In this document: positions 40,009 to 64,000 of the stretch, piece after piece
Position numbering within the stretch: position 1 is the first letter of the stretch
How the letters are laid out: each line of letters opens with the position of its first letter
NCBI GenBank assembly: GCA_030684405.1
Contig: JAUXYA010000021.1
Span: 1-64,000, forward strand
Direction of reading: 5' to 3'
Origin: Burkholderiales bacterium
GTDB lineage: Bacteria > Pseudomonadota > Gammaproteobacteria > Burkholderiales > SG8-41
DNA: 64,000 bases
Translations under genes and position numbers: made by a program
Notes under the pieces: model-generated
What the model was told of the DNA's origin: nothing
Databases searched by the model: none
What the model saw: only the letters and a program-made list of their open reading frames with translations

Positions 40009-40206
40009 TCAACGTTGTGGCAGCAAGCGCTGGTATTCCTTTTTGACATCTGAGTAACATTCGCACGCCCGGTCCTCGAGCTTCGGCCGGTCAATCACAA
40101 TGATGCGACCGCGCGCGTATTCAATCAGACCATCTTTTTGCAGCTTTCCCGCCACCTGGGTGATGCTCTCCCGCCGGACCCCCAGCAAGCTTGCGATCAG
40201 TTCCTG
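40009..40206 (-). pseudogene. Crp/Fnr-family regulator, C-terminal remnant
   Basis: Only the final helix-turn-helix part of a Crp/Fnr regulator remains: QELIASLLGVRRESITQVA, then a GLIEYARGRIIVID wing and the family tail CECYSDVKKEYQRLL. The cAMP-like effector domain (about 150 residues) is missing. Homology stops sharply near 40206, where an unrelated ice-binding-protein fragment starts on the other strand. The open frame continues past the join but the extra residues are not regulator-like. No start codon or ribosome-binding site is credible. Confidence 0.78.
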
Positions 40207-40453
40207 GGCAGGATCACTTACGACCGCGGCCACTTCCAGTGTGCTCCTCACTGGCGGCGCAGTACCTAAGAACGTGTTTTGGCAGGTAGCCGGCGCCTCA
40301 GTGAACATCGGTGCAGCACCTGCCCGCTTTGAAGGCGTTGTATTGGCTCAGGTTGCCATTAATCTGGGCAACGGAGCGATTGCGAATAGCAGACTGCTGG
40401 CGCAAGCCGCAGTCAACCTCGGTGCGACTAACGTCACGCAATCTGACCCTTAA
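40207..40453 (+). pseudogene. Ice-binding (DUF3494) protein, C-terminal remnant
   Basis: The last 80 or so residues resemble the C-terminus of DUF3494 ice-binding/antifreeze-like proteins: AGSLTTAATSS, KNVFWQVAGASVNIG, and LAQVAINLGNGAIANSRLLA before the stop. The N-terminal two thirds, including the signal peptide and most of the beta-solenoid, are missing and are replaced by the reversed Crp/Fnr remnant. Its own intrinsic terminator follows. Assignment is by pattern memory, and a profile search would settle it. Confidence 0.7.
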
Positions 40454-40631: not shown

Positions 40632-40961
40632 CTAGCCGGCCCGTGCATCCTCGCTCGGTGCCCCCTGCTCAAGCCATGCCGCAAACGACTCCATGCGGTG
40701 CGCAAGTCGCCATTCGTCGAGGAGCGTGCGGGCAATCGCGCGCGTGGCACCGGTGACAGTGCTGGCCTCGACATAATCGAGCAGCCATTGTTCGAATGCA
40801 TCTGGTTTGGGATCGTCGCGAGCGGCCTGCTCGAGCAGGTCGCGCCGGATGGCCAGCCCGATCGAATCTGGGGTCTGGTCGCGTTTGCGGGCACGGCTGC
40901 GCCCTTCTGACGCGTCGAGTGCGGCGAGGAGTGCCGTGCAGACCCGGGCTGGGCGCAGCAT
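40632..40961 (-). CDS. Unknown protein at the end of the formate dehydrogenase operon
   Basis: A 109-residue soluble protein that I cannot assign. It starts 5 nt after fdhE. Visible features are a basic stretch ARKRDQTPDSIGLAIRRDLL, an acidic/aromatic middle DDPKPDAFEQWLLDYVEAS and a C-terminal helix RTLLDEWRLAHRMESFAAWL. No cysteine motif, signal or membrane segment is present. Tight linkage to fdhE suggests a role in maturation or regulation of the selenoenzyme. A similar small protein may accompany fdh operons in other betaproteobacteria, but I could not check. Confidence 0.72.
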   Translation of the reverse strand: MLRPARVCTALLAALDASEGRSRARKRDQTPDSIGLAIRRDLLEQAARDDPKPDAFEQWLLDYVEASTVTGATRAIARTLLDEWRLAHRMESFAAWLEQGAPSEDARAG

Positions 40962-40966
40962 GTCTG

Positions 40967-41857
40967 CTATAACCCGCGTGGCGCCGACGGCGGCACATGG
41001 CCAGCAACGGCCAACGAAGCGCGCAACGCAAATCCGGGCCCCGGTGGCTGGAGAAAACCCCGCTCGATCGCGGCGAGGTCGAATTCAACACTCGCGAGGT
41101 CAGTCGCAAGGACTTCGTCCGCCGGCGTGGCCTGAAGCGTCGTGTAGGACTTAAGGTAGCCCGAGCAGCCCCGGCAAACATCAAGCGCGAACCTCGACTT
41201 CTTGTCGTCAACGACCAGCGAGCCGAGTGTCTCGTGGTCGGTCGTTGCGCAATAGATGCAGGCGAGCACCGGCATCGGCCAGCCGACGCCGCAGCGTCCG
41301 CAGCGCAAGTGACGTGCCCTCTCGACGCCCCGTAACTCAGCAAACGCCGGCCACGCCCCGCACACCGGGCAGTAGCCTTGCGACCAGTTGGACACTGGGC
41401 TGCTCGCCCAATGCCGCGCGCAGGCGTGCAGATAAGGCATCGGCAGCAACTGTGCAAGCGTGCGCATGCCCTCCGGGGAGGCGCCCGTCCGCGACGCCCG
41501 CAGATCCAGCGCAAGGTGGTCACCGTTGACGGCCGCCAGAAACACCGCGAGCGCTGCGTCGGACGACTTCTCTTGCGCATGTTCCACATCGCCCGCCAGC
41601 GCGTGCAGACCCTGCGTACGAGCGACGCCGCTCAGGCGATCCAGCAGCCGCGCAACTGCGCGGTCATCGGGTCGCAGCACTGCACCAGCGAGCAAGGGCG
41701 TCAGGTCGGAGGTCACTGCCGTTCGTGGCGGATTTGCATCCCAGGACGGGCTGGAAAGCTCGGCGGCGACCTCGCGCACGACGCACAGCCACGCCGTCCA
41801 TTCTGGATTCGTCGTGATCAGTGTGTCGAGCTTTGAAACTGCGCTCGTCGCGCTCAT
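40967..41857 (-). CDS. fdhE: Formate dehydrogenase accessory protein FdhE
   Basis: A 296-residue FdhE, a rubredoxin-like protein needed for assembly of the active Tat-exported formate dehydrogenase. The four-cysteine pairs YCPVCGAWP, RCGRCGVGWP, CIYC and CRGCSGYLK bind iron. The C-terminal DLASVEFDLAAIERG is typical. ATG 41857 is preferred over an in-frame ATG 36 codons upstream, which would run into the lipoprotein gene. It follows that gene by 7 nt and precedes the unknown gene. Confidence 0.92.
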   Translation of the reverse strand: MSATSAVSKLDTLITTNPEWTAWLCVVREVAAELSSPSWDANPPRTAVTSDLTPLLAGAVLRPDDRAVARLLDRLSGVARTQGLHALAGDVEHAQEKSSDAALAVFLAAVNGDHLALDLRASRTGASPEGMRTLAQLLPMPYLHACARHWASSPVSNWSQGYCPVCGAWPAFAELRGVERARHLRCGRCGVGWPMPVLACIYCATTDHETLGSLVVDDKKSRFALDVCRGCSGYLKSYTTLQATPADEVLATDLASVEFDLAAIERGFLQPPGPGFALRASLAVAGHVPPSAPRGL

Positions 41858-41864
41858 TGTGCGT

Positions 41865-42089
41865 TCATCGCCGGCCAAACTGGCGTGCCTGACTTGCCGA
41901 ATCCAGCATGGGCGTCGCACCAGGCACGAGGCGCGGGGTATCGTGGTAAGGGCGCGAGCCTTCATGCATACGCACGACTTCAGGGCGGTTGCCGGTGTCG
42001 CCGCCGGGCCCGCCGCCTTGAGTGCGCGTCGCTTCCGGGCTGGTGCAGGCGGCGAGCAACAGCGAGAAAATGCTCAGCCGTAGTCTCAT
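41865..42089 (-). CDS. Small predicted lipoprotein of the fdh operon
   Basis: A 74-residue protein whose ATG overlaps the nrfD stop by four bases. It begins MRLRLSIFSLLLAAC, a short signal peptide ending in a lipobox LAAC (Cys15), so it should be a lipoprotein. The mature part is Gly/Pro/Arg-rich with conserved-looking stretches RPEVVRMHEGSRPYHDTPR and DSASQARQFGRR. I do not recognise the family. Translational coupling to nrfD and the gap of 7 nt to fdhE make it a bona fide operon member, perhaps a small partner of the membrane enzyme. Confidence 0.78.
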   Translation of the reverse strand: MRLRLSIFSLLLAACTSPEATRTQGGGPGGDTGNRPEVVRMHEGSRPYHDTPRLVPGATPMLDSASQARQFGRR

Positions 42090-42994
42090 GGCGCGTTCAC
42101 CACGGGGACGAACACGATGGCCGTGCGCACGAGGAAGCCACCGGCAAGAACCAGAGCGGCCGCGACGGACAGACCACCTTTGCCTTGCGGTCTGCGGCGG
42201 CGAAACGCAATCAGCGGCAGCACAATCCCGATGGTTATGCCTATCGCAAGCACGATGCCCCAGACGTTGAGCCAGCCGCGAACGGCCGGGCCGAGCGAGA
42301 TAAACAGCGCGACCAACACGAGAATCTGTACGACCAGAAGCCACATCCAAATGCGATTCAGCGCAGCTACAGCAGGGCTTTGCCAGCGCAGCCAGCGGGC
42401 ACCCAGCGCCAGCAGCGCAGCCGACATTGTGACGGCGGATACAATGAACAGCATGCCGAACAGCGGCGTGTCCGACCAGACTGGCCGGTTCAATACTGAA
42501 AGCATGACGCCGGTATAGCCGGTGACGTGAAGCGCGAGAATGGCGCCCAGCACGGCGACCAGGGTTCCAAGGAGAGCCGGTGGCCGCAGGCGCCGCGCGA
42601 ACCGCCAGTGGGGACGATGATGCTCAGCGATCGTCGCCACGAACGAGAGCGTCGCGAAAAAACCGAACAGCGGTACCGCCCACGATCCAGTCGACATCGG
42701 CACCCAATACTTGAACATCGGCCGTAGCGTGTGGTTCTCGATGAATAGATGCCAGAACCGGTCAGGCCGCGACAGATCGACGATCAGCACGACGCCAATC
42801 ACCAGCAGCAGCGGCAGCGTGATGTAGTAGCCCAGCCGCGCCAGCCGCCGGTCGCTCGAGCGACCCGTAAGGTCGATCATCGCCGAAAGGAAATAGGTTC
42901 CGCCGGCCAGCGCGCCGAGCACGAAGTACACGACGATCAGCCAGTACCAGTGCGGCGATGCGGTGAACCACGTGCTGCTCGGAGCATCGATCAT
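42086..42994 (-). CDS. NrfD/PsrC-type membrane subunit of formate dehydrogenase
   Basis: A 302-residue integral membrane protein with about eight helices, of the polysulfide reductase NrfD family. WYWLIVVYFVLGALAGGTYFL at the start and LHVTGYTGVMLSVLNRPVWSDTPL in the middle are typical. It lacks the haem-binding histidine pattern of FdnI and so is expected to pass electrons from the Fe-S subunit to quinone without cytochrome b. It lies 2 nt after fdhB. Confidence 0.9.
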   Translation of the reverse strand: MIDAPSSTWFTASPHWYWLIVVYFVLGALAGGTYFLSAMIDLTGRSSDRRLARLGYYITLPLLLVIGVVLIVDLSRPDRFWHLFIENHTLRPMFKYWVPMSTGSWAVPLFGFFATLSFVATIAEHHRPHWRFARRLRPPALLGTLVAVLGAILALHVTGYTGVMLSVLNRPVWSDTPLFGMLFIVSAVTMSAALLALGARWLRWQSPAVAALNRIWMWLLVVQILVLVALFISLGPAVRGWLNVWGIVLAIGITIGIVLPLIAFRRRRPQGKGGLSVAAALVLAGGFLVRTAIVFVPVVNAP

Positions 42995-42996
42995 CG

Positions 42997-43788
42997 TCAG
43001 TCCCTGCCGGCTTCGTCCGCGCGGCGGTCGCGGAAGTTGAAGATGCTGACGAGCCCGACGATGAGCGCTCCCAGCATCGTAAACAACGTGCCAGGCACCA
43101 GATGCCGGCTCGGCATTTTCGGATCGGGCGGAAGGCCGTACACCTCGGGCCGATCCACCAGCAGGAAAAATGCGTTCAGGCCGCCGAGCATCTTCTCGTC
43201 AGCACCGTACAGCACCGCGCGCTTTTCGCCGGCGGCGTGAAGCTGGTCCACGCGGCGGGCCGCGCGCTCCTTCAGTTCACGGACCGGCCCGAACACGATC
43301 GAGTCTGTGGGGCAGGCCTGCGAACACGCGGGCTCCATGCCAGCCTGCAGACGGTCGTAACACAGCGTGCATTTCTGGGCGGTGTTGGACACCGGGTTGA
43401 TGTCGATGACCCCGAACGGACACGCCGCGATACACGCCTTGCATCCGTTGCAGGTGTCCGACTGAATGACAACGGTATCGAATTCGGTGCGGATGATCGC
43501 GTTGGTCGGGCATACCTCCAGACAGCCTGCCTGCACGCAGTGCTTGCACACGTCGCTCAACATGGTCCAGCGGCCATCGCGGCGATCCTCGTCGATCTGC
43601 TCGATGAACTTTACGTGCCGCCAATGGGTTCCGTCGAGCTTGCGCGTGTTGTCGTAGCTGTCACCCGACAGCGTCTTGCGCGCGTCATCCAATGCGGGCA
43701 ACTGGTTCCACTGCTTGCATGCGACCTCGCAGGCCTTGCAGCCTATGCACACTGTCGGGTCGGTAAAGAATCCCATCGCTTCGGCCAT
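42997..43788 (-). CDS. fdhB: Formate dehydrogenase iron-sulfur subunit
   Basis: A 263-residue ferredoxin-like subunit with four [4Fe-4S] clusters: CIGCKACEVACKQWN, CKHCVQAGCLEVCPTNAI, CNGCKACIAACPFGVID and CTLCYDRLQAGMEPACSQACP. A C-terminal membrane helix (TLFTMLGALIVGLVSIF) anchors it, as in FdnH-type subunits. The ATG at 43788 follows AGGAG by about 10 nt; an in-frame upstream ATG lies within fdhA. It wires electrons from FdhA to the NrfD-type subunit. Confidence 0.93.
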   Translation of the reverse strand: MAEAMGFFTDPTVCIGCKACEVACKQWNQLPALDDARKTLSGDSYDNTRKLDGTHWRHVKFIEQIDEDRRDGRWTMLSDVCKHCVQAGCLEVCPTNAIIRTEFDTVVIQSDTCNGCKACIAACPFGVIDINPVSNTAQKCTLCYDRLQAGMEPACSQACPTDSIVFGPVRELKERAARRVDQLHAAGEKRAVLYGADEKMLGGLNAFFLLVDRPEVYGLPPDPKMPSRHLVPGTLFTMLGALIVGLVSIFNFRDRRADEAGRD

Positions 43789-43801
43789 CGTCAGTTTCTC
43801 C

Positions 43802-46800
43802 TCAAGCCTTTTGAACGTTGCACACAAAGGCCTTGCCTTCGTGCATCGAGACGTTCGGATCGCCGATGAGTGCGCTCATCTCGTTGACGACGTCGCCTGT
43901 GGTCAGGCCTTCCCACCCCCAGTGAAACGGCATGCCGACCTGGTGCACCATCTGGCCGGCAATCTTCAAGGGTTGCATGCGCCGCGTCACCAGCGCCTTG
44001 GCGTGCACTGAAGCGCGCGGGCTGGTGATGCGAACGCGGTCGAGATTGGCAATACCCTTCTCGCGCGCCAGCTCAGGCGACAACTCTACAAATAGCTCTG
44101 GCTGCAATTCGGCGAGCCACGGGTTCCAGCGGCTCATGGCACCCGACAGGTAATGCTCGGTGAGACGGTAGGTGGTGATGACGTGCGGGTATTTCGGGTC
44201 AGCTACATCGGCCAGAGGATTGCCGGCAACATTCCAATACTTGAGCACCGGGCTAGACTGTTGCCTGTACAGCGGATTGCGCACCGGCGATTCAGCCGGC
44301 TCATAGTGAGTGGGTAATGGCCCGTCCACCAGACCCTCCGGCACATACAACCAACCGACACCGTCTGCCTTCAGGATGAACGCATCGGTCCCTGAATGTG
44401 CATCCATGCCGGTCGCACCCGGCACGGGCTGTTGAGTAGGCGGCTTGGTCTCGGGAAAATCCGGCACGTCGAGGCCGACCCATTTGCGTTGCGCTTCGTC
44501 CCACCAGATGTATTTCTTGCGTTCGCTCCACGGGCGGCCCTGCGGGTCTGCGGACACGCGGTTATACAGAATGCGCCGGTTGGACGGCCACGCGAAGCCC
44601 CAGCCAAGCTGCGCGCCGCGCACGCCAGGCTTGTCTGCCACACGGTTCGCAGAGCGGTTTTCCCCCGGCGACGGAAACACGCCGCAGTAGATCCACGAGG
44701 CACAGCTGGTCGAGCCGTCATCGCTGAGGTCCTCAGCGCCGGCCAGGTGGCGGCCAGGGTTGTCGCTGTAGAAGCCGTTAATCTCCTTGAGAATCTTTTC
44801 AGACCCGGGTTCGCCCATCTGCCGGTCGCGTGCGTCATCGGACTCGTAGTCCCAGACCATATGCTTGAACCCCTCATCCCGTGCCAGCGTCGAGTTCGCA
44901 TAGAGCTTCTTCAGGCGTTTGCCCAGCTCATAGGTGAAGTACATGTCCGAGCGACAGTCGCCCGGCGCATTGGCCGCCTTGTAGTGCCACTGCAGCATTC
45001 GCTGCGTGTTGGTGAAACTTCCGTCGTACTCGGCCACCTGCGACGACGGGAAGAAGAACACCTCGGTCGCGATGTCGGCGGTCGCGACTTCGCCGGAGCG
45101 CACTTCAGGCGCCGTCTTCCAGAACATCGACGTCTCGTGCAACCAGTTGTCCTTGACTACCAGCCACTCGAGCTTGCGCAGGCCGGAACGCTCCAGCTTG
45201 GCGTTCAGCGAGGTCGCCGGGTTCTGGCCGATACAGAACATGCCCTTGACACGACCCTCGTTCATCGCGACGAACATCGGCATGTGCGAGTGGTCGCCAA
45301 TTATCTTTGGATGCCAGTCATAGCCGAAGTTGTTGTCGCGCGTCGCCGCAGCTCCGTACATCGACTTCAGGTACGACACCATGAACTTCGGCGTGTTGGC
45401 CCAGTAGCCGGTGGGTTGCGTCTCCTCGACCAGCCACTCGGCCAGCGACGCGTGCGGCTTCAGCGCCGACGGATGCGCCATGTAGCCATGGATCGAGTGG
45501 TACAAGGTCGGGATGTCGGTCGAACCCTGGATCGACGCATGGCCACGCAGGGCCACGATTCCGGCGCCGGGACGTCCGACGTTGCCCAGCAGCAATTGCA
45601 GCAGCGCCGCGCAGCCGATGATCTGCACTCCGTAGGTGTGCTGCGTCCACGCGACGGCGTAGGCGATCGACGTCGTCCGCTCGGCGCCGGAGTTGTCGAG
45701 GATCGTTTGCGCGACGCGCAGGAACAGGTCGCGCGGGCAGCCGGTCACCTGCTCGACCATCTCGGGCGTGTAGCGCGAGAAGTGCCGGCGCACGATCTGC
45801 AACACGCTGCGCGGATTGGCCAGGGTCTCGTCGCGCAGTTCAGGCGCGCCGACGAGTGCCTGCACCATGCGGTCGTACGGGGGACCGCTTGCGGCGTTCT
45901 TCAGCGCCCGTTTGGTCCGTTCGTCGCCGGGGCCGTCGTTGGCCTGTTCGCCGGAGCGTTGCGTATCAGCGATGCGGCCTCGCGAATGGGTGTCTGAGCC
46001 CGCATATTTCCACGACGAAGACTTGTATTCGCCAATGAAGCCGTTGAACGGCCACTCTTCGGCATCGCCGGTGTAGGCCATCAGTCCGGAGAAGACGCCG
46101 TCGAGATCTTCGGTGTCGCGAAATTCGCTGGAGATGATCGTCGACGCGTTCGTGTAGGTCGAGACGAAAGTTCGGAAGAAGGGATCCTGGTTCCAGCGCT
46201 CGCTGTTCAGAACAAAGTTGACGAGCCCGCCGAGAAAGGCGATGTCCGAGCCGGCGCGCAGTGGCGCATAAATGTCGGCCATCGCGCTGGTGCGCGTGAA
46301 ACGGGGGTCAACATGGATCAGTTTCGCACCGTGCTCGACCTTGGCCTTCATGGGCCAGCGAAACGCTACAGGATGGTTTTCGGCCATGTTGGAGCCCATG
46401 ACGAGCACACAGTCCGAGTCCTCCATTGCTCGCGGATACATCGTGGCCGCCCCGCGGCCCAGCCTGGTCCCCAGACCGGGGACACTCGAGCTATGTCATA
46501 TTCGCGCCTGGTTCTCGATGGGCACGATGCCCAGGCCGCGCATCAGCTTTTGCTGAATGTGGTTCCACTCGTTGTCTAGCGTGGCGCCACCCAGCGAGAA
46601 AATTGACGTTGTGCAGTTGACCAGCTTGCCGTTGCCAAGCCGCTCGATGAACGTCTCGTCGCGCGTCTTCTTTGTCAGTTCGGTGACGCGTGCCATCGCC
46701 CGCTCAAGGCCCCATACCTCCCAGTCGGCCGCACCAGGTGCGCGGTGCAACACCTGCGTCGGCCGGTTCGGATTGACATGAAGCTGGAAGATGGCCGCGC

Positions 46801-47092
46801 CTTTCGGGCACAGCGTGCCCTCGCTGTGGGGGCTGCGCACATCGCCTTCGATGTTGACGATACGATCGTTAACGGTGTGAATCAGCGTGGCGCAACCCAC
46901 AGCGCAGAACGGACAAATGCTCGGCGTGGCCTTTGCATTGCTGATGCGCAACTGCTGGGCGCGTGCTGCGCTCGGAGCCAGGCTCATGCCGGCGCCCACC
47001 AGGCCACCCACAGCGGTGCCGCCGACAAGTAGTCGGCCGAAATCGCGTCTCGAAATCTTCATCTTTTGATCGTTGGAGCTGGTGTTCTTCAT
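43802..47092 (-). CDS. fdhA: Formate dehydrogenase catalytic subunit, selenocysteine-containing
   Basis: Read as one 1096-residue protein with an in-frame TGA (46496-46498) translated as selenocysteine 199. A Tat signal (SRRDFGRLL, residues 14-22) is followed by a [4Fe-4S] site with Cys60, Cys63, Cys67 and Cys95, then ENQARI-Sec-HSSS. This matches the NQARV-U-H context of FdnG-type enzymes, where Sec ligates molybdenum or tungsten. The reading frame is preserved exactly on both sides of the TGA, and SECIS-like structure follows. It oxidises formate to CO2 in the periplasm. The start may instead be ATG 47062. SelA, SelB, SelD and tRNA-Sec are not in the window. Confidence 0.93.
46467..46483 (-). 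promoter_or_regulatory. SECIS-like hairpin for selenocysteine insertion
   Basis: On the minus strand GTCCCC pairs with GGGGAC around a GGTCT loop, 12 nt after the TGA codon. The GGTCT apical loop is the same as that of the Escherichia coli fdhF SECIS element recognised by SelB, and spacing from the TGA is similar. Confidence 0.82.
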
Positions 47093-47368
47093 GTCGTGTG
47101 TCGCCAAGAAATGAGCGATCGCACTATCCGTGTCGCAGCCGAGTCGGGTCTGTACGAAAGCGAACAGACTCTGCCGGACCCACACTCGCTTAATGCGTAG
47201 GGAAAGACGAAGTCGAGCAGGCATACGATGTGCAGCGTGGCGCCCGCCGAGTTCGGAAATCCGTGCCCGCAAGGACTTGATGACGATGCCGACAAACCCC
47301 ATTGAAACGCACCCTGCGCCGGCGTGGTGTGCCGCCTCCCCATCCTTGTCAGCCTGTCGCGCCGCCTC

Positions 47369-47794
47369 ATGCCCTGGCTGAAGCTGCTGCACGTCACTGC
47401 TGTCATCGTGTGGTGCGGAGCCCTGCTGTACTTGTCCGCGCTTTTCGTTACGGTGGCCGGGGCGCGCAGTTCAGACACGGCTGGTGCAAGCAGTGGCAGA
47501 TGGCTGCTCCGAGCCTTCTACACTGGCGTAGCCACTCCGGCTGCACTGGTTGCCATCAGCAGCGGTACCTGGCTCTTTGCCACACAGGGACCGCTTGCGC
47601 CCTGGCTGATGATCAAGCTGGCGCTGGTGAGCCTGCTGGTGCTGGGGCACGGCGCCTGCGGCATGCTGGTGCTGCGTAGTGAGCGGCACCAGTACGACGG
47701 ACTGGGCATCGCTGGCCGAGTGGTGACTGCCACCACATTGCTCTGGCTGGTTGGCATCGCTGCGCTGGTGTTGGGCAAGCCAGTGTGGCCATGA
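47369..47794 (+). CDS. CopD/HemJ-like four-helix membrane protein
   Basis: A 141-residue membrane protein with about four helices, beginning MPWLKLLHVTAVIVWCGALLY. The LHVTAVIVWCG first helix and the second-half GWLFATQGPLAPWLMIKLALV pattern match the CopD/HemJ (UPF0093) superfamily, which includes protoporphyrinogen oxidases and copper-resistance proteins. The ATG at 47369 is preferred over one 15 codons earlier. It is divergent from fdhA and upstream of the oxidase genes. Which function applies here is not clear. Confidence 0.7.
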   Translation: MPWLKLLHVTAVIVWCGALLYLSALFVTVAGARSSDTAGASSGRWLLRAFYTGVATPAALVAISSGTWLFATQGPLAPWLMIKLALVSLLVLGHGACGMLVLRSERHQYDGLGIAGRVVTATTLLWLVGIAALVLGKPVWP

Positions 47795-47850
47795 CTCGGC
47801 AGCGGACGACCGCCGTGCGCCGACCCGTCACTCGCCTCTGGCCTGCGGCT

Positions 47851-48312
47851 TCAGTCGGTATTCACGCCCACTGCTTGTTCGTAAACCAGACGTCCGCCCA
47901 GATACGCCGCCAGCGCGATGAAGCCCGCGGTGGCCAGTGTCATGCCCAGTCCCCAGGGCATCAGGTAGCGGCCTGGATCGTCGCCCAAACGCAACTGCCA
48001 GTTGAAGGTGGCCAGCGACAGCATCATCACTGCCATCAGCGCGTGGCCCCAGGCAGTGATCAGGCGCCGCACCTGCGCCACGGTGAGCAGATCCACCAAG
48101 CCTGCGACGCTGGCGACCCAGCCACCCAGCGCGCCGACGCCCGCGAGCCACAAACCGGCGCGGGCCCAGAACGGGTCACCGGTATACAGGTAAGCAGCAT
48201 CAGCCCCCACCAGCCCGATCAACGCCGCTACCGGAAAGTGGATCAGCATCGGATGTACCGGATGCCCGGCAATCGCGGCGTGGCTGGGGATCGATTCGGT
48301 AACGGGTTTCAT
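47851..48312 (-). CDS. DUF2231 membrane protein
   Basis: A 153-residue membrane protein with four predicted helices. The signature HPVHPMLIHFPVAALIGLVGAD near residue 17 defines DUF2231, whose members may bind haem through the paired histidines. WGLGMTLATAGFIALAAYLGGRLVYE ends the protein. It converges with the CopD-like gene and is divergent from coxB. DUF2231 proteins are frequently near oxidase genes, and their role is unknown. Confidence 0.87.
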   Translation of the reverse strand: MKPVTESIPSHAAIAGHPVHPMLIHFPVAALIGLVGADAAYLYTGDPFWARAGLWLAGVGALGGWVASVAGLVDLLTVAQVRRLITAWGHALMAVMMLSLATFNWQLRLGDDPGRYLMPWGLGMTLATAGFIALAAYLGGRLVYEQAVGVNTD

Positions 48313-48370
48313 CGCTGCATTGTATGGCCAATCAATCAGGTGCGGGGCCTCTGGTGTCAAACGAAATGTT

Positions 48371-48391
48371 CGACTTCAATGTTCGAAGTCG
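48371..48391 (+). promoter_or_regulatory. Inverted repeat over the coxB start codon
   Basis: CGACTTC and GAAGTCG form a 7-bp stem with a 7-nt loop (AATGTTC) that contains the coxB ATG at 48379. It could hide or expose the start. It may also be an operator. No experimental support. Confidence 0.3.
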
Positions 48392-49143
48392 TACAGACTC
48401 GATCACCGGACCCATGGCGCGCCACCTGGACGGGCGTGGTGACGGCAGCGGTGTTGACTGGATGTGCCGGACCCCAGTCGATGCTCGACCCGGCTGGTCC
48501 GTCCGCACATGCCATCGCCGCGGTTTGGTGGTGGATGCTGGGGGTGAGCGCGCTGGTGCTGCTGGGCGTCGTCGCGCTGTGGCTGGTGGCAATGGGTCGA
48601 CACGCGCCGACAGCCAATGACGACACCCAGTTAGGTGCAGGTCAGACCGGTCGGCGGTGGATCATTGGCGGCGGCATCATGCTGCCGGTTGCGGCCATTG
48701 TGCCGCTGTTGATCTTCGGCAGCCCGGCCGGACTGCACCAATTGCCGCTCGCTCGTTCTATCGCAGGTGAAACGGCGGCGCCGCCTTTGCGCGTCAACGC
48801 CACCGGGCAGCAATGGTGGTGGGCGTTGCACTATCCGGCCAGCGGTGTGCGTCTGCGCAACGAGTTGCGCCTGCCCGTGGGCCGGCCGGTATTTGTGCAT
48901 GTAGGCAGCGTAGACGTCATCCACTCCTTCTGGGTGCCGCGCCTGGGCGGAAAGCTCGACGCCATTCCCGGACGCATCGGAATCGTACGCCTGCAGGCTG
49001 ACCAAGCCGGCAGCTTTCGCGGCCAGTGCGCCGAGTTCTGCGGACTGGGCCATGCGCACATGGTAATGACGGTGATCGCGATGCCGGCAGCCGAATTCGA
49101 CGCTTGGCTGACAGCACAAGCGAGTGTCGCCAATCATGACTGA
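48379..49143 (+). CDS. coxB: Cytochrome c oxidase subunit II
   Basis: A 254-residue CuA subunit. The N-terminal VLTGCAG suggests a lipoprotein processed at the cysteine. Two membrane helices follow (AIAAVWWWMLGVSALVLLGVV and the next near residue 95). The CuA site is complete: HSFW near residue 175 and CAEFCGLGHAHM near residue 218. ATGTQQWWW-like aromatic residues (ATGQQWWW) typify the electron entry patch. No cytochrome c domain is fused. It accepts electrons from cytochrome c and passes them to the fused subunit I/III, whose ATG overlaps its stop by 8 nt. Confidence 0.93.
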   Translation: MFEVVQTRSPDPWRATWTGVVTAAVLTGCAGPQSMLDPAGPSAHAIAAVWWWMLGVSALVLLGVVALWLVAMGRHAPTANDDTQLGAGQTGRRWIIGGGIMLPVAAIVPLLIFGSPAGLHQLPLARSIAGETAAPPLRVNATGQQWWWALHYPASGVRLRNELRLPVGRPVFVHVGSVDVIHSFWVPRLGGKLDAIPGRIGIVRLQADQAGSFRGQCAEFCGLGHAHMVMTVIAMPAAEFDAWLTAQASVANHD

Positions 49144-51670
49144 GCCCAACGTCCAGTCTGCGACCCGCGACCCGGCTGCGCTGCATGCCGAATTCGAGGC
49201 CGTCTGGGGCAACCCGCGCGGCTGGCGGGCGCTGAGCATCGTCAATCACACCAGTTTGGCCAAGCGCTTTATGGTTACTGGCGCGGTGTTCTTTCTCATC
49301 GCCGGGCTGCTGGGCATGCTGCTGCGCGCACAATTGGCGCAGCCGAACCAGGGTTTCATGGGTGTGCAAGCTTACAACCAGATCTTCACGATGCACGGCA
49401 CGATGATGATGTTTCTTTTCGCCGTGCCCATGCAGCAGGGCTTGGCTGCCTACCTGCTGCCGAAGATGCTGGGCGCACGGGATCTCGTGTTCCCGCGTCT
49501 GGGCGCCTTCGGCTACTGGTGCTACCTGTTCGGCGGATTGATCTTCACCAGCAGTCTGCTGCTGGGCCTGGCGCCCGACGCCGGCTGGTTCATGTACACG
49601 CCGCTGTCCAGCAACACCTACTCGCCCGGCCTGGGGGCAGACTTCTGGTTGCTGGGCATCACCTTCATCGAGATCGCAACGATGGCAGCGGCCATCGACA
49701 TCGCGGTGTCCATCCTGCGTGCCCGCGCCGCGTGCATGGGCCTGCACCAGCTGCCGATCTTCGCCTGGGCCATGCTGGTGACATCGCTGATGGTGATCGT
49801 GGGCTTTCCGCCGCTGATTTTGGGCAGCATTCTGCTGGAGTTGGAACGCGCCGCCGGTTGGGCCTTCTTCGACCCCACGAGGGGCGGCGACCCCTTGCTG
49901 TGGCAGCACTTGTTCTGGCTCTTCGGCCACCCCGAGGTTTACATCATCTTCCTGCCGGCCGCGGGCGTGGTGTCGATGCTGGTACCGGTGTATGCGCGAC
50001 GACCGCTGGTAGGCTACCTCTGGGTGGTGGTATCGATGATCGGCACCGGCTTCATCAGCTTCGGATTGTGGGTCCACCACATGTTTGCCGTCGGCATCCC
50101 GGCGCTGTCGCAGGCCTTTTTCGCGATGGCCAGCATGCTGGTGGCCGTACCCACTGGCATTCAGCTGTTCGCGTGGATCGCTACCCTGTGGTCCGGTCGG
50201 CCGGTATGGAGTGTGCCAATGCTGTGGATCGCCGGCTTCCTGTTTATCTTCGTCGCCGGAGGGCTTACCGGCGTGATGCTGGCCTTCGTTCCCTTTAACT
50301 GGCAGGTGCATGACACACACTTCGTGGTGGCACACTTTCACTACGTGCTGATCGGCGGCATGCTGTTCCCGCTCATCGCCGGTATCTACCATTGGCTTCC
50401 GCACTTCAGCGGACGCCTGCCTTCCGAGGCATTGGCGAAGACCGGGTTCTGGCTCACTTTCATCGGTTTCAACGGCACTTTCCTGGTGATGCACTGGACC
50501 GGGCTGCTGGGCATGCCCAGACGTGTTTACACTTACGACCCCGGGCTGGGATGGGACATACCCAATCTGGTGTCCTCGGTGTTCAGCTTCGTCATGGCCT
50601 TCGGCATCGCCACGTTGCTGCTGGACCTGGCGCTGCACTGGCGTCATGGCCGCAAGGCGCCGCTGAATCCCTGGCAGGCTGACACGCTGGAATGGGCCAG
50701 CGGTACCCCGCCGCGTTCATACAACTTCGTCAGCCTGCCGCGAATCAACACGCGCCATCCGCTGTGGGACCAGCCTGATCTGCCCGAGACGATCGCCGCC
50801 GGTATGCACGCCCTCCCGCATGCAGCACACGGCCGGCGCGAGACTCTGGGCGTGGACCCGGTAAGCGGCCGGGTGCGCGAGGTCATCCACCTGCCCGGCA
50901 ACTCGTGGTGGCCGCTGACGGCGGGCAGTCTGCTGGCGGTGCTATGCATTGCATTGCTGCTTAAGCAGTACATCCCGGCCCTCGTCGTTACGCTGGCGGC
51001 GGCAGCGGCGATGTTGCGTTGGTCGTGGGAGAACGGTGCCCATCCACTGGCCGCCGGTACCGATGCGCATGACCTGCCGCATGGCCTGGAACTGCATTCA
51101 CGCACCTTCGACGGCCCCGGCCTGTGGGGCATGGGCATGACGATGCTGGCCGATGCAGCATTTTTCGCCTCGCTGCTGTTCGGCTGGCTGTATCTGTGGA
51201 CGGTAGTGCCTGGCGGTCAGCCTGCGGCCTCGTCACCGCTCGGCCACTGGCCGCTGGCAGTAGTGACTGCGCTGTTCGGCGCCGGGCTGTGGATCCTGCA
51301 CCACGTCGTGCAGCGCCTGCGTAAGGGCAACGATATCGGGTTGCGATCAAGGCTGTGGACAGCCACGGTCTGCGGCGCAGCCAGCTGTGTCGGATTGAGC
51401 TGGCTGCTTGCCACCGCCCCGCTGCAACCCACGCTGCGCGCGCACGACGCAGTACTCGCCTTCACGTTGTTGTTCCTGCTTTTGCATGGCACTTTGGCCG
51501 CGGTGCTGACAGCACTCCAGGCTTTGCGTGTGCACCATGGCCACGTCAGCCTGGCGGCGCCTTATGAACCGGCGGTGGTAGCGATTCTGTGGCGCTTCTG
51601 CACTTTGGCGTGCGCCCTCGCTTGGGTGCTGATGGCATTGCTGCCGTTGGCCTTCGGGGCCCCGCCGTGA
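49136..51670 (+). CDS. Fused cytochrome c oxidase subunit I/III
   Basis: An 844-residue protein joining subunit I (about residues 30-560) to a short subunit III-like tail (about 650-844). Haem and copper ligands are present: His87 and His402 (haem a), His265 with Tyr269 of HPEVY, His314 and His315 (CuB), and His400 (haem a3). The D-channel entrance Asp116 and Glu267 remain. The K-channel lysine is replaced (TGIQLF, Gln343). The usual D-channel Asn positions appear as Ala105 and Gly123. These changes define an alternative A-family oxidase. Alignment was by eye. It is co-transcribed with coxB. Confidence 0.9.
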   Translation: MTEPNVQSATRDPAALHAEFEAVWGNPRGWRALSIVNHTSLAKRFMVTGAVFFLIAGLLGMLLRAQLAQPNQGFMGVQAYNQIFTMHGTMMMFLFAVPMQQGLAAYLLPKMLGARDLVFPRLGAFGYWCYLFGGLIFTSSLLLGLAPDAGWFMYTPLSSNTYSPGLGADFWLLGITFIEIATMAAAIDIAVSILRARAACMGLHQLPIFAWAMLVTSLMVIVGFPPLILGSILLELERAAGWAFFDPTRGGDPLLWQHLFWLFGHPEVYIIFLPAAGVVSMLVPVYARRPLVGYLWVVVSMIGTGFISFGLWVHHMFAVGIPALSQAFFAMASMLVAVPTGIQLFAWIATLWSGRPVWSVPMLWIAGFLFIFVAGGLTGVMLAFVPFNWQVHDTHFVVAHFHYVLIGGMLFPLIAGIYHWLPHFSGRLPSEALAKTGFWLTFIGFNGTFLVMHWTGLLGMPRRVYTYDPGLGWDIPNLVSSVFSFVMAFGIATLLLDLALHWRHGRKAPLNPWQADTLEWASGTPPRSYNFVSLPRINTRHPLWDQPDLPETIAAGMHALPHAAHGRRETLGVDPVSGRVREVIHLPGNSWWPLTAGSLLAVLCIALLLKQYIPALVVTLAAAAAMLRWSWENGAHPLAAGTDAHDLPHGLELHSRTFDGPGLWGMGMTMLADAAFFASLLFGWLYLWTVVPGGQPAASSPLGHWPLAVVTALFGAGLWILHHVVQRLRKGNDIGLRSRLWTATVCGAASCVGLSWLLATAPLQPTLRAHDAVLAFTLLFLLLHGTLAAVLTALQALRVHHGHVSLAAPYEPAVVAILWRFCTLACALAWVLMALLPLAFGAPP

Positions 51671-52059
51671 CACCAGAGACCGATGTCCCGAGCTTGGCAC
51701 CTGGAGGAGAACGTACCGATCATGCCTGGCACCTGATCTTGGGCTTGACGTTGTGGTTCGCCTGGTTTTGCGCCACCTATGGTGGAATGGCGGTGGCCTG
51801 CGCAGTGGCGCCGCCGCTGGCTGCGCTGGGGCCGCTGAACTGGCTCAATGCCACCGTGCTGATCCTGGCAACCGCCACCACCGCAGCATTCGCCACCGGC
51901 GCCTGGGCCAGCACACGAACGGCACGGCACCTGCCTGCCGGCAGTGCCGTCGCACGCAGCCGCTTCATTGCCCGCGCGTCCGCGGCGCTGTACACCACAG
52001 CCGCGGTGTCCACGGCCGTGATAGCCCTGCCGGCCGTGGTACTGGCGCCGTGCACATGA
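51667..52059 (+). CDS. Small membrane protein in subunit IV position
   Basis: A 130-residue protein with three likely membrane helices (HLILGLTLWFAWFCATYGGM, LNATVLILATATTAAFATGAW and LYTTAAVSTAVIALPAVVL). The GTG at 51667 overlaps the stop of the fused oxidase gene, so it is co-translated. Sequence identity to known CoxD is not evident, but the place and size suit an oxidase subunit IV or a small accessory protein. Its stop overlaps the ctaG ATG. Confidence 0.7.
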   Translation: MTPETDVPSLAPGGERTDHAWHLILGLTLWFAWFCATYGGMAVACAVAPPLAALGPLNWLNATVLILATATTAAFATGAWASTRTARHLPAGSAVARSRFIARASAALYTTAAVSTAVIALPAVVLAPCT

Positions 52060-52904
52060 CCCCCGTTGCTTGCGGCGGGCTTGGCATTATGCTGTTGGTG
52101 GCGGGAGTGCCGGCGCTGGCTCTGGCGCACAGCGGGCTGCCCACGGCCGGCGCCGAGGGCAGCTACGAGCAGGCACCCGTCTGGTTGGCCCAGGCCCTGT
52201 TCGCGCTGGCCTGGCTGGCTTACATCATTGGCGCTATACGGCGGCAGCCGCGATTCGGTCCGCACCTGGCCTTCCACACCACCATGCTCATCTCCGGGCT
52301 GACGCTGTTCGGGCCGCTGGATACGCTGGCCGTACGCGGCGCCGCCTGGCACATGGTGCAACACATGCTGCTGATCGTGGTGGTAGCGCCGATGGCGGTG
52401 CTGTCACGGCCGTTGCCGCAATGGCGAGCGGCGATGGGCGCGGCGGTGGATGCGCTGTGGCGCCTACTGCACCGGATCAGCCGTCACCCCCTGCACTGTG
52501 CACTGTTGCACGCCGCGGCCATCTGGTTCTGGCATGCGCCCGTACCCTACATCGCCGCTGTACAGACACCGGCCTGGCATGTGCTGGAACACGCCAGCTT
52601 CCTGTTCAGTGGCTGGCTGTTCTGGTGGTCGGTGCTGCGCCCCAGCAGCGCCGGCGTACTGGAGGCGGCGCTGGCGCTGCTGTTCACCGTCATGCACACG
52701 GGACTGCTAGGCGCGCTGCTTACCTTTGCCAGCACTCCTCTGTATGACAGCGGGCCCGCCGCGCTGGCCGACCAGCAACTGGCCGGACTGGTGATGTGGA
52801 TTCCCGGTGGTCTCGTCTACCTGCTAGCGGCCGTGTGGGCTACCTGGCGCTGGCTGCATACCTTGGAGACAGAGCCAGTTCGTGCGGGCACATACGCCCC
52901 CTAG
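52056..52904 (+). CDS. ctaG: Cytochrome c oxidase assembly factor CtaG (caa3 type)
   Basis: A 282-residue membrane protein of the CtaG_2 family, which supports copper insertion or assembly of caa3-type oxidases. Landmarks are WHMVQHMLLIVVVAPM near residue 95, HAAAIWFWHAPVPY near residue 150, WHVLEHASFLFSGWLFWW and HTGLLGALLTFA. The histidines may bind copper. The ATG overlaps the preceding stop (ATGA). It closes the oxidase operon. Confidence 0.9.
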   Translation: MTPVACGGLGIMLLVAGVPALALAHSGLPTAGAEGSYEQAPVWLAQALFALAWLAYIIGAIRRQPRFGPHLAFHTTMLISGLTLFGPLDTLAVRGAAWHMVQHMLLIVVVAPMAVLSRPLPQWRAAMGAAVDALWRLLHRISRHPLHCALLHAAAIWFWHAPVPYIAAVQTPAWHVLEHASFLFSGWLFWWSVLRPSSAGVLEAALALLFTVMHTGLLGALLTFASTPLYDSGPAALADQQLAGLVMWIPGGLVYLLAAVWATWRWLHTLETEPVRAGTYAP

Positions 52905-52991
52905 CATCCGTGCAGGGCAAAGTGCGGTAACGGACAGACCGCACATTCATGGGCTCCATACTGTCCTGTTTAACAGACTGAATGGGGCTTC

Positions 52992-53594
52992 ATGAACGTC
53001 ACATCTACGACCGTTGTCATTCTGGCTGGCCTGCTCCTGCTGGCCGTATTTTTCGTTGTCGGCCTGTATAACAAGCTGGTTGCAATGCGCAACCGCTACC
53101 GGAACGCCTACGCGCAAATCGACGTGCAGCTCAAGCGGCGCTACGATTTGATCCCGAACTTGGTTGAGACCGCGCGTGCTTATCTTCAGCACGAACGTGG
53201 CACGCTGGAGGCGGTAATCACCGCGCGCAACGCCGCCTCCACTGCCGGTGCCGCTGCTGCCGCTCAGCCCGGGGATCCCGTGGCAATGAAGGCACTGGTC
53301 GGCGCCGAAGGAGTACTCACCGGTACACTGGGCCGCCTGTTCGCGCTGTCAGAGGCCTACCCGGACCTGAAGGCCAACACCACCATGCTGGGGCTGATGG
53401 AAGAGTTGGCATCGACCGAGAACAAGGTGGCGTTTTCGCGCCAAGCCTACAACGATGCAGTGATGGTTTACAACACACAGCGCGAGGTCTTCCCCAGCAG
53501 CATTATCAGCAACAGCTTCGGCTTTGCTGCGGCCGAGTTGTTTGTGATCGAGGCTCCTGCGCAGCGCGAGCCACCGAAAGTGGCCTTCACCTGA
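52992..53594 (+). CDS. LemA family protein
   Basis: A 200-residue membrane-anchored protein. One N-terminal helix (VVILAGLLLLAVFFVVGLYN) is followed by the LemA core LVAMRNRYRNAYAQIDVQLKRRYDLIPNLVETARAYL and later YNDAVMVYNTQREVFPS, a four-helix bundle. LemA proteins are widespread and of unclear function, often paired with an M48 protease as here. A ggggctt spacer separates it from ctaG by 87 nt. Confidence 0.94.
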   Translation: MNVTSTTVVILAGLLLLAVFFVVGLYNKLVAMRNRYRNAYAQIDVQLKRRYDLIPNLVETARAYLQHERGTLEAVITARNAASTAGAAAAAQPGDPVAMKALVGAEGVLTGTLGRLFALSEAYPDLKANTTMLGLMEELASTENKVAFSRQAYNDAVMVYNTQREVFPSSIISNSFGFAAAELFVIEAPAQREPPKVAFT

Positions 53595-53622
53595 AGCCTG
53601 AGCACAGTCACTCGGCCCTCTC

Positions 53623-54678
53623 ATGGATTTCTTCGGCAAGCAGGCCCAGGCGCGGACGAAGACAACCGCCCTGGTACTGTATTTCGTGCTGGCGGTAATC
53701 TTGATCGTCGCCGCCGTGTACTCGGCGAGCCTGGGCATCCTGCACTTTACGCAGGTAATGACCAACGACGGCGCACCGGTGGCCTTGCCGTCGTGGCGCA
53801 GCATCGTGCTCTGGGACCCGCAGCTCTTCGGCTGGGTCGTCTCCGGCACACTGGGTGTGGTGCTGGCGGGCGCGATCTACAAATTCCTGCGTCTGTCGCG
53901 AGGCGGCAGTGCGGTCGCCGAGGAACTGGGCGGACGCCTGCTGGTCGATGACCCGACCGATGCAGACGAACGCCGGTTGCGCAACGTTGTCGAGGAAATG
54001 GCCCTGGCCGCCGGCGTGCCTGTCCCCAAGGTCTACGTGCTGGATAGTGATTCCGGCATCAACGCCTTCGCTGCCGGCCACAACGCCGGGGACGCCGCCA
54101 TCGGCATCACCCGCGGCGGCATGACCCTGCTCACACGGGACGAACTGCAGGGCGTTATTGGCCACGAGTTCAGCCACTTGTTGAACGGTGACATGCGAAT
54201 GAACATTCGCATCATGGGTGTCCTTTTCGGCATCGTGTGTCTGACAGTAATCGGGCGTGTTCTGATGCATTCGCGCGGCGGCGGCAATCGGGGACGTGCC
54301 CCCATGCTGTTGCTGGGCGTGGCGCTGCTGATTATCGGCGCGGTGGGTGTACTCTTCGGCCGTCTGATTCAAGCCGCACTGAGTCGGCAGCGTGAGATGC
54401 TTGCCGATGCTTCGGCCGTGCAATTCACGCGCAATCCGGCCGGGTTGGCTGGGGCGCTGCGCAAGATCGGCAGCGTTGGCGCACGCATCGACTCACCGCA
54501 TGCCGGCGAGGCCAGCCACATGTTCTTCGAGAACGGCTTGGGCAAGCCGGTGTTCGGCTGGCTCGCCACCCACCCACCGCTGGCCGAACGCATCCGGGCC
54601 ATCGACCCCAGCTGGGACGGTCGCTTCGACGCCATTGTCACCACTACACCGGGACCGGATCGCGCCCCGGCGGTCTGA
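53623..54678 (+). CDS. M48 family metalloprotease
   Basis: A 351-residue membrane protease of the HtpX/Ste24 type. Two N-terminal helices are followed by the cytoplasmic or membrane zinc motif IGHEFSHLLNGD (HEFSH at residues 181-185), a downstream helix pair and the ligand Glu in SRQREMLADASAVQFTRNP. It lies 28 nt after lemA, and the pair is a common module, perhaps for membrane quality control. A direct LemA partnership is inference. Confidence 0.93.
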   Translation: MDFFGKQAQARTKTTALVLYFVLAVILIVAAVYSASLGILHFTQVMTNDGAPVALPSWRSIVLWDPQLFGWVVSGTLGVVLAGAIYKFLRLSRGGSAVAEELGGRLLVDDPTDADERRLRNVVEEMALAAGVPVPKVYVLDSDSGINAFAAGHNAGDAAIGITRGGMTLLTRDELQGVIGHEFSHLLNGDMRMNIRIMGVLFGIVCLTVIGRVLMHSRGGGNRGRAPMLLLGVALLIIGAVGVLFGRLIQAALSRQREMLADASAVQFTRNPAGLAGALRKIGSVGARIDSPHAGEASHMFFENGLGKPVFGWLATHPPLAERIRAIDPSWDGRFDAIVTTTPGPDRAPAV

Positions 54679-54739
54679 GCAAAGCTGACGTTGGGAGACA
54701 ACACACCATTTGCTTGCATGGGGGGCCATTCGTTGCGAA

Positions 54740-55044
54740 TTACAATTGCAGTCGGAGCAAGGACGCCAAGAAATCCAGAAACCTTTCCTTTAAAGGTCGC
54801 TGCTTCCACTCCGACAAAGAGACTGGTCTGGATCGGACGACATCTTGCTCGAAAATTTCGATCTGACGACGCGCGAATGAAGCGTCGAAAATGTTCAAGT
54901 TAGCCTCGTCATTCAGCGAAAAAGACCGGCTATCGAAATTGGTAGATCCGACCGACACCCAGAGTTCATCGACGATCATGACTTTGCAATGGTACATGGT
55001 CGGCTGATACTGGTGAATCTCAATGCCAGCCTCGAGCTGAGCAA
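54740..55044 (-). pseudogene. Cardiolipin synthase C-terminal remnant
   Basis: The minus strand codes for the last 90 or so residues of a cardiolipin synthase/phospholipase D enzyme. The second HKD motif is seen as YHCKVMIVDELWVSVGSTNF, then SFSLNDEANLN and the terminal FEQDVVRSRPVSLSEWKQRP. Homology continues upstream of the first ATG (EAGIEIHQYQPTM) to about 55044, where it runs into Ku sequence on the other strand. The first two thirds of the gene are gone. Confidence 0.82.
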
Positions 55045-55711
55045 GGAGCAGATCGAATTCGCGTATCCGAAATCCACACAGACCATTGAAATCGAAACCT
55101 TCGTCAAGGCCGGAGAGATTGATATTGATCTGTTAGTCAAACCCTATTATCTCGAACCCTCCGGGAAAGCCGCAGACAAAGTGTATGCGCTGCTGCGCGA
55201 GTCAATGCGCTAGGCAGGTGTCATCGGCATGGCATGAGTCGTCATGCACACCAAGGAACATTTGGCGGCGCTGATCCCTTCGGGCGCGGCCCTGATCCTG
55301 AACACGATCCGCTGGGCAAGTGAAATCCGTCCGGTAAGCGACTTGAAGCTGCCGGCTGACGGGAAAACCGCAGCCAATCTGAAGCCTGCCGAATTGAAGA
55401 TGGCGGCGAAGCTCATCAGCGACATGATGGGAAAGTGGAAACTCGAGGACTATGCCGAGAACTTCAGTACAGCCGTACACGAACTCGTGAACCGGAAAAT
55501 CAAGGCTGGCGAAACCGAGTCGGTGACGCCGATCGAGGATACTCCGAAGGAAGAGCGCTCCTCCAACGTGATCGATCTGACTGAACTGCTTGCGCAGAGC
55601 CTCAAGCGTAAAACTGGCGCCGCTGGTAAGACAGAGCAACCAGCCAAACCGAAGGCCGGACCTTCTTCAAAGAAAGCGAATTCGAAGCCGGCGGTTCGCA
55701 AGAGAGCCTGA
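55030..55711 (+). pseudogene. Ku (non-homologous end joining) pseudogene
   Basis: A Ku gene lacking about the first 90 codons. The remnant reads LELSKEQIEFAYPKSTQTIE and on through KPYYLEPSGKAADKVYALL, then the core MHTKEHLAALIPSGAALILN and a Lys-rich tail. Two in-frame stops, TAG at 55211-55213 and TGA at 55235-55237, split it while the frame is otherwise unbroken; single changes (for example AAG to TAG and CGA to TGA) would explain them. The missing 5' end was replaced by the inverted cardiolipin synthase fragment. No LigD gene is nearby. The C-terminal piece from 55244 could still be translated but would not be functional Ku. Confidence 0.85.
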
Positions 55712-55788
55712 ATGGAATCGCTGGGAACGGCATTGCCTTAAGGCTTATTATCGTAAAATATGTTATTAATCAATAAGTTATTAACTTA

Positions 55789-57009
55789 TCATCCGAGATC
55801 TGATCTATAGAATGTACCCAAAGGCTGCGCCTTGCCGCTGAGGCGCGCACCCAGCCCCAGAAGCGCCGGCGCACGTTTCAACAACGACACTGCCAATTGG
55901 GCAGCGGCTGGCCGGGTCGCAATATGCGCGAACAGGGCGGCCACATGCACACGTTGCGAAAAATTTCTGCGCCAGCTGTCTGCGTAATCTTCTGCCAACG
56001 CCGCGGTTCCGCGGCCCCGAAGTATTCCATTCCGATGTGCGACCAGGCGCTGGCATAGCAACCAGGACGATTGCATGGCCATGCTGATGCCTTCCGCCAC
56101 TATGGGATGCGCTTCTCCCGCAGCGTTGCCAACCGTGAAAATTCCATCATGCCGAAATGCGCGTATGCCCGGTCTAATCGGCCCCACCGAAAGGCATTTG
56201 GCATCGAGCGTTGCACCTGCGAGCGCCTCGTCAACCCCTTCGCATGCGGCGCGCACGTGCGCAATCACGGCTTCAGCGGCTTTTGCCTCAGGATAATCGT
56301 GCCGGCAGCTCGCCAGAAAGTCACGCCGTATGCAGCAGGAAAGGCTGGTTCGGCCGCCGTCGCTGTGAACCATTCCCCCGTAGCCCCCCGGGAATGCCAG
56401 TAGTGGCATCAATCCCGCCGGCAGACCGCAATCGCGAAAGTGGGCCTTGAATGCAAACAGGTCGGATATCTGCGGCGCAGCACGGGCGGGAAGTGTCGGC
56501 AGCGCACCCTGCTCCCATGACCCGTGCGCGGCGATGACAATTCGTGCGGCCAGCGAGGTACGTTCGCCGGTGTCATCTGCCACAGCGGTACCCATAAAAC
56601 CGTCCTCCACTTGTATGAGTTCAGTCAGCTTCCACGGTTGCCACAGTTCGGCTCCCGCCGCATCGGCGGCATTCAATATGAGGGCATCCAAATGCTCGCG
56701 CCCGAGCGCCCTGCCGTATAGGTCAGTACCATCCTGCGGGCACGGCATGTCGACCGCCATCCGCGTTTTTCCGGAGTACACGCCGACTTGACGTACCGGA
56801 GGCCCGGCCTGTTCGAGATAAGCCTTTTCAAGCCCAAGTTTTCGCAGCAGAGGCAGACTCGTTGCCGACACGAATTCGCCGCAGACCTTGCGCCGCGGAA
56901 AACGCGTCTTCTCCACGATTGACACTGCCCAGCCAGCTCGTGCGAGCATCAGTGCAGCGGTTGATCCGGCAGGTCCGGCTCCGATCACCAAGGCGTCATA
57001 CGTCTTCAT
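55789..57009 (-). CDS. FAD-dependent oxidoreductase (geranylgeranyl-reductase-like)
   Basis: A 406-residue flavoprotein. The N-terminal Rossmann motif is VIGAGPAGSTAALMLARAG. It is followed by RRKVCGEFVS, a CGE element characteristic of the geranylgeranyl reductase/halogenase-like superfamily, and by GNAAGEAHPIVAEGISMAM near residue 290, the second FAD motif. It is four-base overlapped with the methyltransferase and lies in a type III PKS cluster, so it may oxidise or reduce the polyketide product. The exact reaction is not predictable. Confidence 0.87.
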   Translation of the reverse strand: MKTYDALVIGAGPAGSTAALMLARAGWAVSIVEKTRFPRRKVCGEFVSATSLPLLRKLGLEKAYLEQAGPPVRQVGVYSGKTRMAVDMPCPQDGTDLYGRALGREHLDALILNAADAAGAELWQPWKLTELIQVEDGFMGTAVADDTGERTSLAARIVIAAHGSWEQGALPTLPARAAPQISDLFAFKAHFRDCGLPAGLMPLLAFPGGYGGMVHSDGGRTSLSCCIRRDFLASCRHDYPEAKAAEAVIAHVRAACEGVDEALAGATLDAKCLSVGPIRPGIRAFRHDGIFTVGNAAGEAHPIVAEGISMAMQSSWLLCQRLVAHRNGILRGRGTAALAEDYADSWRRNFSQRVHVAALFAHIATRPAAAQLAVSLLKRAPALLGLGARLSGKAQPLGTFYRSDLG

Positions 57010-57740: not shown

Positions 57741-57767
57741 TGCTTACTGTCGACCTATGGCAGGATT

Positions 57768-58853: not shown

Positions 58854-58867
58854 GAATACTTCGAAGT

Positions 58868-58905
58868 AAAAAGGCCCCCGAAGGAATTATATTCCCGGGG
58901 GGCCT
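58868..58905 (-). terminator. Intrinsic terminator upstream of the PKS gene
   Basis: AGGCCCCC (58872-58879) pairs with GGGGGCCT (58898-58905), with an inner GGAAT/ATTCC stem. On the minus strand it ends in TTTTT. It should stop transcription coming from the DUF2383 side and isolate the PKS operon. Confidence 0.8.
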
Positions 58906-60904: not shown

Positions 60905-61023
60905 CCTGGAATTTCGTTTTATGCGATCTATTTTACTCAATAGTTCGAATTTACTCCATGCCATGGCGGCTCTGGTTACTCACGCCTCGGCCGTCGGGCA
61001 CGAGAGCGTTCCGCGTTAAAACG

Positions 61024-63989: not shown

Positions 63990-64000
63990 ATTCGGGTTGC

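Follow-up and report, generated by a model that had tools for sequence, protein, structure and literature searches.

A formate dehydrogenase gene cut by an in-frame stop codon raises the question of whether the gene is broken or is read through with selenocysteine (Sec), and of how it came to reside in its host. The case considered here lies in the genome of a Burkholderiales bacterium, in a stretch of 64,000 nucleotides that we call the window. Read with translation table 11, the catalytic gene, fdnG, appears as two open reading frames (46496-47392 and 43802-46441), just as the original prediction had expected it to be called as two fragments. The frame holds a single internal TGA, at 46498-46496 on the minus strand, and a terminal TGA at 43804-43802 (minus strand), and 897 codons are open past the internal TGA before the frame ends. 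With the internal TGA read as Sec, fdnG (47092-43802, minus strand) would encode a 1096-aa alpha subunit of formate dehydrogenase-N, with Sec as residue 199 in the context NQARI-U-HSSSVPGLG. A second in-frame ATG, at 47062, coincides with the start of the alignment with E. coli FdnG.

FdnG passed the cut-off of TIGR01553 (formate dehydrogenase-N alpha subunit) with 970.4 versus 814.2 bits. Its top-scoring model was NCBIfam NF041513 (formate_DH_Act), with 1337.6 bits, yet slightly under the cut-off of 1400. The best match in the PDB was E. coli FdnG (1kqf_A), aligned over nearly the whole length. In the phmmer alignment the TGA faces residue X of NQARVXH, the modified active-site residue, which we take to be Sec. 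The placement of the TGA (46496-46498) at the Sec site of FdnG-type enzymes was correct to the base. The N-terminal region (46958..47092, minus strand) starts with SRRDFGRLLVGG..., presumably a twin-arginine (Tat) type signal, and ends in SAARA, with a putative cleavage site and predicted export to the periplasm. A search of the same genome with TIGR01591 returned five matches at E up to 1e-60, none of them with an internal stop; it missed fdnG of the window and is thus blind to genes of this type.

The same codon position was then compared among homologues. Among named genomes, scanning turned up 290 relatives; the best 80 were kept, and all 80 of these loci, from several phyla, carry TGA at the Sec codon. 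Because the TGA is common to all of them, a sequencing error in what is in truth a cysteine codon, the outcome that was to speak against the original prediction, is not credible.

Downstream of the TGA we found a hairpin at 46483-46467 (minus strand) with a 6-bp stem (GUCCCC/GGGGAC) and the loop GGUCU at 46477-46473, which bore out the proposal of a GGTCT-loop element at the expected distance. The available part of a published description of bacterial SECIS elements (bSECIS) gives as limits a loop of 3-9 nt, a stem of 4-16 bp, a G within the first two loop positions, a spacing of 16-37 nt from the UGA and a minimum free energy of at most -7.5 kcal/mol (PMC13188914). The fdnG hairpin falls within all of these limits, with a 5-nt loop, a 6-bp stem, G as first loop base, 18 nt from TGA to loop and -11.3 kcal/mol. 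That energy holds for the isolated 23-nt hairpin, and 12 of 200 shuffled sequences did as well. Folding the nucleotides after the TGA, suggested earlier as a check, did not favour the element: the 44-nt stretch that starts at the TGA folds preferentially into a different structure (z -1.65, matched by 15 of 200 shuffles). Folding energy was therefore dropped as evidence for the hairpin and covariation was used in its place. An Rfam scan of the window gave no match at the gathering score.

Covariation was evaluated in 81 sequences including that of the window, 74 of them distinct. Stem cells were paired in 97.1% of cases, with both sides changed in 40 cells, and the covariation score was 0.252 versus a shuffled mean of 0.127; sliding the stem by 1-3 columns gave at most 0.041. 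Two of the six stem pairs are invariant and hence uninformative in this respect, and the number of further pair types in the stem (six) showed no excess over shuffles (mean 6.0). Codon choice was then examined in the loop. Where the loop codon specifies glycine it is GGT in 53 of 56 rows (GGG in the other three), against 12.5% of glycine codons across the same genes, and where it specifies serine it is AGT in 25 of 25 rows, against 4.0% of serine codons gene-wide; the rows are related, so binomial figures derived from them are not independent tests. We also compared codons column by column in 78 of the 81 rows (L072, L083 and L118 were dropped for extra stops). At the loop codon the GGT share was 94% of 54 glycine rows, whereas the next best among 86 glycine columns reached 25%; the next best AGT share among 82 serine columns was 27%. 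Judged from these alignments, the hairpin is conserved far beyond chance and is evidently under selection.

The genome (3.74 Mb in 37 contigs, 99.4% complete) carries the full set of genes named in the original prediction as a check on Sec decoding, and the absence of selAB or selC that would have spoken against it was not found. On contig C35 we located tRNA-Sec (50057-50147; 75.9 bits), selB (63232-65112; 434 bits) and selA (65304-66641; 585 bits), and on contig C21 selD (4962-5891, also recorded as L043:4965-5927, minus strand; 424 bits), all over their cut-offs. Among 14 known genomes used as controls, those over cut-off numbered five for tRNA-Sec, two for selB, one for selA and two for selD; as the tRNA-Sec cut-off of 47 bits was passed by five of the 14, weak tRNA-Sec matches mean little. 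An fdhD-like gene is also present, with a score under its NCBIfam cut-off. The selD gene itself holds an in-frame TGA within the active-site motif HGGGUGCK, and SelD is therefore predicted to be a selenoprotein. A rhodanese-domain gene adjoins selD, and it looks to us like mnmH.

The occurrence of enzyme and machinery was then compared across 61 genomes (the genome itself and 60 relatives), with at most 12 candidates scored per genome (12 of 24 in the genome itself). Within this limit, a homologue of the alpha subunit (E up to 1e-50) was present in 10 of the 61 genomes. Nine of these ten have TGA at the site, and all nine have SelB over the cut-off together with tRNA-Sec. The tenth, G055, has the cysteine codon TGC and lacks both the GGTCT loop and a SelB over the cut-off; its tRNA-Sec match, at 48.6 bits, barely exceeds the cut-off of 47. 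Sec machinery was common among congeners, with tRNA-Sec in 19 of 20 and SelB over the cut-off in 18 of 20. A selD with one TGA was found in 16 of the 18 congeners searched (no match in the other two), the place of the TGA having been checked in the genome under study only. Among genomes of other families in the order, SelB was over the cut-off in 7 of 24, so the patchiness of selenoproteins mentioned in the original prediction holds within the order. According to the accessible portion of an earlier survey, FdhA is the most numerous bacterial selenoprotein and SelD the sole selenoprotein in several species (PMC1794560).

Two readings in which fdnG would not yield a working selenoenzyme have to be set against these results. 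One takes the TGA for a nonsense mutation in a cysteine-type gene, or for an error of sequencing there, so that the locus would be a pseudogene or artefact. The split of the open reading frame by an in-frame stop is what this reading would predict, but it leaves unexplained the TGA shared by all of the 80 best loci of 290, the long open frame beyond it and the constraint on the loop codon, and we consider it exceedingly improbable. The other is that UGA is decoded as a different amino acid or mostly terminates translation, leaving an enzyme that is inactive or made in trace amounts. With SelA, SelB, SelD, tRNA-Sec and a conserved SECIS all present, this appears very unlikely, if slightly less so than a broken gene. 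Decoding of the TGA as Sec in an intact gene is the reading that we carry forward.

The genes downstream of fdnG are on the same strand. The next, fdnH (42997..43788, minus strand), encodes a 263-aa 4Fe-4S beta subunit that is over the cut-off of PF13247 and scores 180 bits with TIGR01582 (FDH-beta), under its cut-off of 335. It is followed by a gene for a 302-aa NrfD-like membrane subunit (42086..42994, minus strand; PF03916, 67.7 bits, cut-off 25.8), whose stop is overlapped by the start of a gene for a 74-aa lipoprotein-like protein with the conserved stretch CTSPEATRTRGGGPGADxGNR (41865..42089, minus strand). An fdhE-like maturation gene (40967..41857, minus strand) reaches 28.3 bits with PF24860 (cut-off 27) and 50 bits with TIGR01562 (under the cut-off of 188), and a conserved 109-aa protein, recognized by tblastn, is encoded by the last gene of the shared operon (40632..40961, minus strand). 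The cytochrome b subunit FdnI is not encoded in the operon, the third gene belonging to the NrfD family (PF03916).

In the best 80 of 290 loci, tblastn matches anywhere in the locus were obtained for fdnH in 78, nrfD in 66, fdhE in 18, the 109-aa protein in 17 and the lipoprotein-like protein in 13, counts that may miss fast-evolving genes and that include loci truncated at the end of a contig. The full six-gene order was seen in 10 of the 15 loci listed (L046-L052, L055, L056 and L059). The two small genes match no known family convincingly: the 74-aa protein matched nothing in Pfam and nothing convincingly in NCBIfam, the 109-aa protein had no NCBIfam match and only weak single-member matches in Pfam, and for both the best family matches, at E 0.003 to 0.07, were to individual members. 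Formate dehydrogenase operons that include the 74-aa protein range from Betaproteobacteria to Thermomicrobia.

Compared with E. coli FdnGHI (PDB 1kqf), the locus shares an alpha subunit of near full length, a modified residue at the same site and a 4Fe-4S beta subunit, but it has an NrfD-like membrane subunit instead of the b-type cytochrome and two extra small genes. Because of the NrfD-like subunit it does not specify a strict FdnGHI complex. The closest operons, in Ramlibacter aurantiacus (L046), R. rhizophilus (L049) and a Hydrogenophaga metagenome-assembled genome (MAG; L048), have all six genes in identical order, the TGA and the hairpin, with alpha subunits 82-86% identical; in contrast, DNA similarity to these nearest holders is restricted to about 40,634-47,060 of the window. 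A plasmid of Thermomicrobium roseum (NC_011961), a member of a different phylum, encodes an alpha subunit 60.6% identical over 97%. Sec-containing formate dehydrogenases and bSECIS were known before, as stated in the part of the literature available to us (PMC13188914), and by its genes the locus most likely encodes a formate dehydrogenase-N whose membrane subunit is of the NrfD type, a known kind of enzyme.

How the operon reached this genome was examined by comparison with congeners. Their similarity to the contig that holds the window (C6) breaks off near position 39,890 and begins again near 65,935, and the flanks abut in two congeners; the operon therefore lies in a 26-kb island, from about 39,892 to 65,935 of the contig (39893..64000 in the window, past whose end it extends). 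It is flanked by an ArsC/Spx-like gene on one side and a guaA-like gene on the other, both named from sequence reading. The gap between the flanks measures 41 bp in G003 and 116 bp in G006, it widens to 628 bp in G012 and 1.4 kb in G010, and G004 has 11.6 kb of other DNA at the site. An FdnG-type enzyme was found in none of the 20 congeners, with at most 12 candidates scored in each. The original prediction had left a choice between a Sec-decoding lineage and an acquired operon, and both apply: most congeners have tRNA-Sec and SelB, none has the enzyme among the candidates scored, and empty sites are seen.

FabF was used as a single core-gene yardstick for these comparisons. FdnG is 86% identical to that of R. 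aurantiacus, 84% to that of a Beijerinckiaceae MAG, 85% to that of the Hydrogenophaga MAG and 82% to that of R. rhizophilus, whereas the respective values for FabF are 64% (a match that crosses one TGA), 58%, 68% and 66%. FabF is 94% and 93% identical in the congeners G003 and G006, both without FdnG. In G041 the relation is reversed (FdnG 73%, FabF 79%). A quick tree joined the window's copy with the four nearest ones (two Ramlibacter, Hydrogenophaga and the Beijerinckiaceae MAG) in one group (SH-aLRT 100) with a weakly resolved inner order. The wider surroundings were mixed (Myxococcia, Rokubacteria, Gemmatimonadales, Chloroflexi and Thermomicrobia) and betaproteobacterial rows showed little more clustering than after shuffling of the labels (4 changes versus 4.8), in a tree whose genome bins may hold stray contigs. 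The accessible text of the earlier survey describes a formate dehydrogenase tree that would fit a transfer of fdhA in Pseudomonadales (PMC1794560).

These data bear on a further alternative, that the genus has long had the operon by vertical descent and that the sampled congeners lost it. It would fit the genus-wide presence of Sec machinery, and with congeners 74-100% complete some absences may be gaps. Against it, five of the 20 congeners without the enzyme (again among at most 12 candidates each) are 98-100% complete, the flanks abut in two congeners, and FdnG is closer to the Comamonadaceae copies than FabF is; universal loss would moreover need repeated deletions with a nearly identical junction. 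We regard vertical descent as unlikely, though less remote than either of the alternatives to Sec decoding. The operon instead looks acquired on the genomic island, with the direction and date of transfer being our own inferences.

Taken as one joint claim, it is very probable that this is an intact, ordinary Sec formate dehydrogenase whose TGA is read as Sec and whose operon was acquired on an island by a lineage that decodes Sec. The designation of the locus as a selenocysteine formate dehydrogenase is supported, with the refinement that its membrane subunit is NrfD-like. In the mechanism that we propose, the complex of SelB and Sec-tRNA would bind the GGUCU-loop hairpin 18 nt past the UGA and Sec199 would be inserted. 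Sec199 would then ligate the active-site metal, as Sec does in a known formate dehydrogenase according to the available part of the source (PMC13188914). FdhE and FdhD would mature the enzyme and the Tat system would export FdnG to the periplasm, where electrons from formate would probably pass through the 4Fe-4S subunit and the NrfD-type subunit to the quinone pool. The product of the six-gene operon would be a periplasmic, membrane-anchored formate dehydrogenase-N with a Sec catalytic subunit, and the operon would have arrived on the island in a species belonging to a genus in which Sec was already decoded. For annotation, one intact selenoenzyme is a better call than the two fragments yielded by a table 11 gene caller. 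The locus is also a clear example of the gain of a selenoprotein operon by a species whose congeners lack that operon yet decode Sec, and it is relevant to the way in which the use of Sec is retained and reused.

More tentatively, the 74-aa and 109-aa proteins could be unrecognized dedicated parts of the NrfD-anchored Sec enzyme, such as an assembly factor or an extra subunit, within a six-gene cassette that moves between phyla and plugs into resident Sec machinery that congeners keep without the enzyme. We hold this to be possible, with the odds somewhat against it.

Other features were noted in and around the island. At its edge, window 40009-40308 (minus strand) holds a 99-aa open reading frame with only a C-terminal Crp-type helix-turn-helix (PF13545), perhaps a truncated regulator. 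The rest of the island within the window (47324-64000) carries cytochrome-oxidase-like genes, including one for an 848-aa fused subunit that is only 38-40% identical to its same-genus matches, and also CopD-like, LemA/HtpX-like, chalcone-synthase-like and cation-ATPase-like genes, named from sequence reading. A second insertion relative to congeners lies at about 70,887-113,669 of contig C6 (L132-L134) and appears prophage-like from its open reading frames; it comes with a recombinase-like gene (112133-113680 of the contig) that adjoins tRNA-His.
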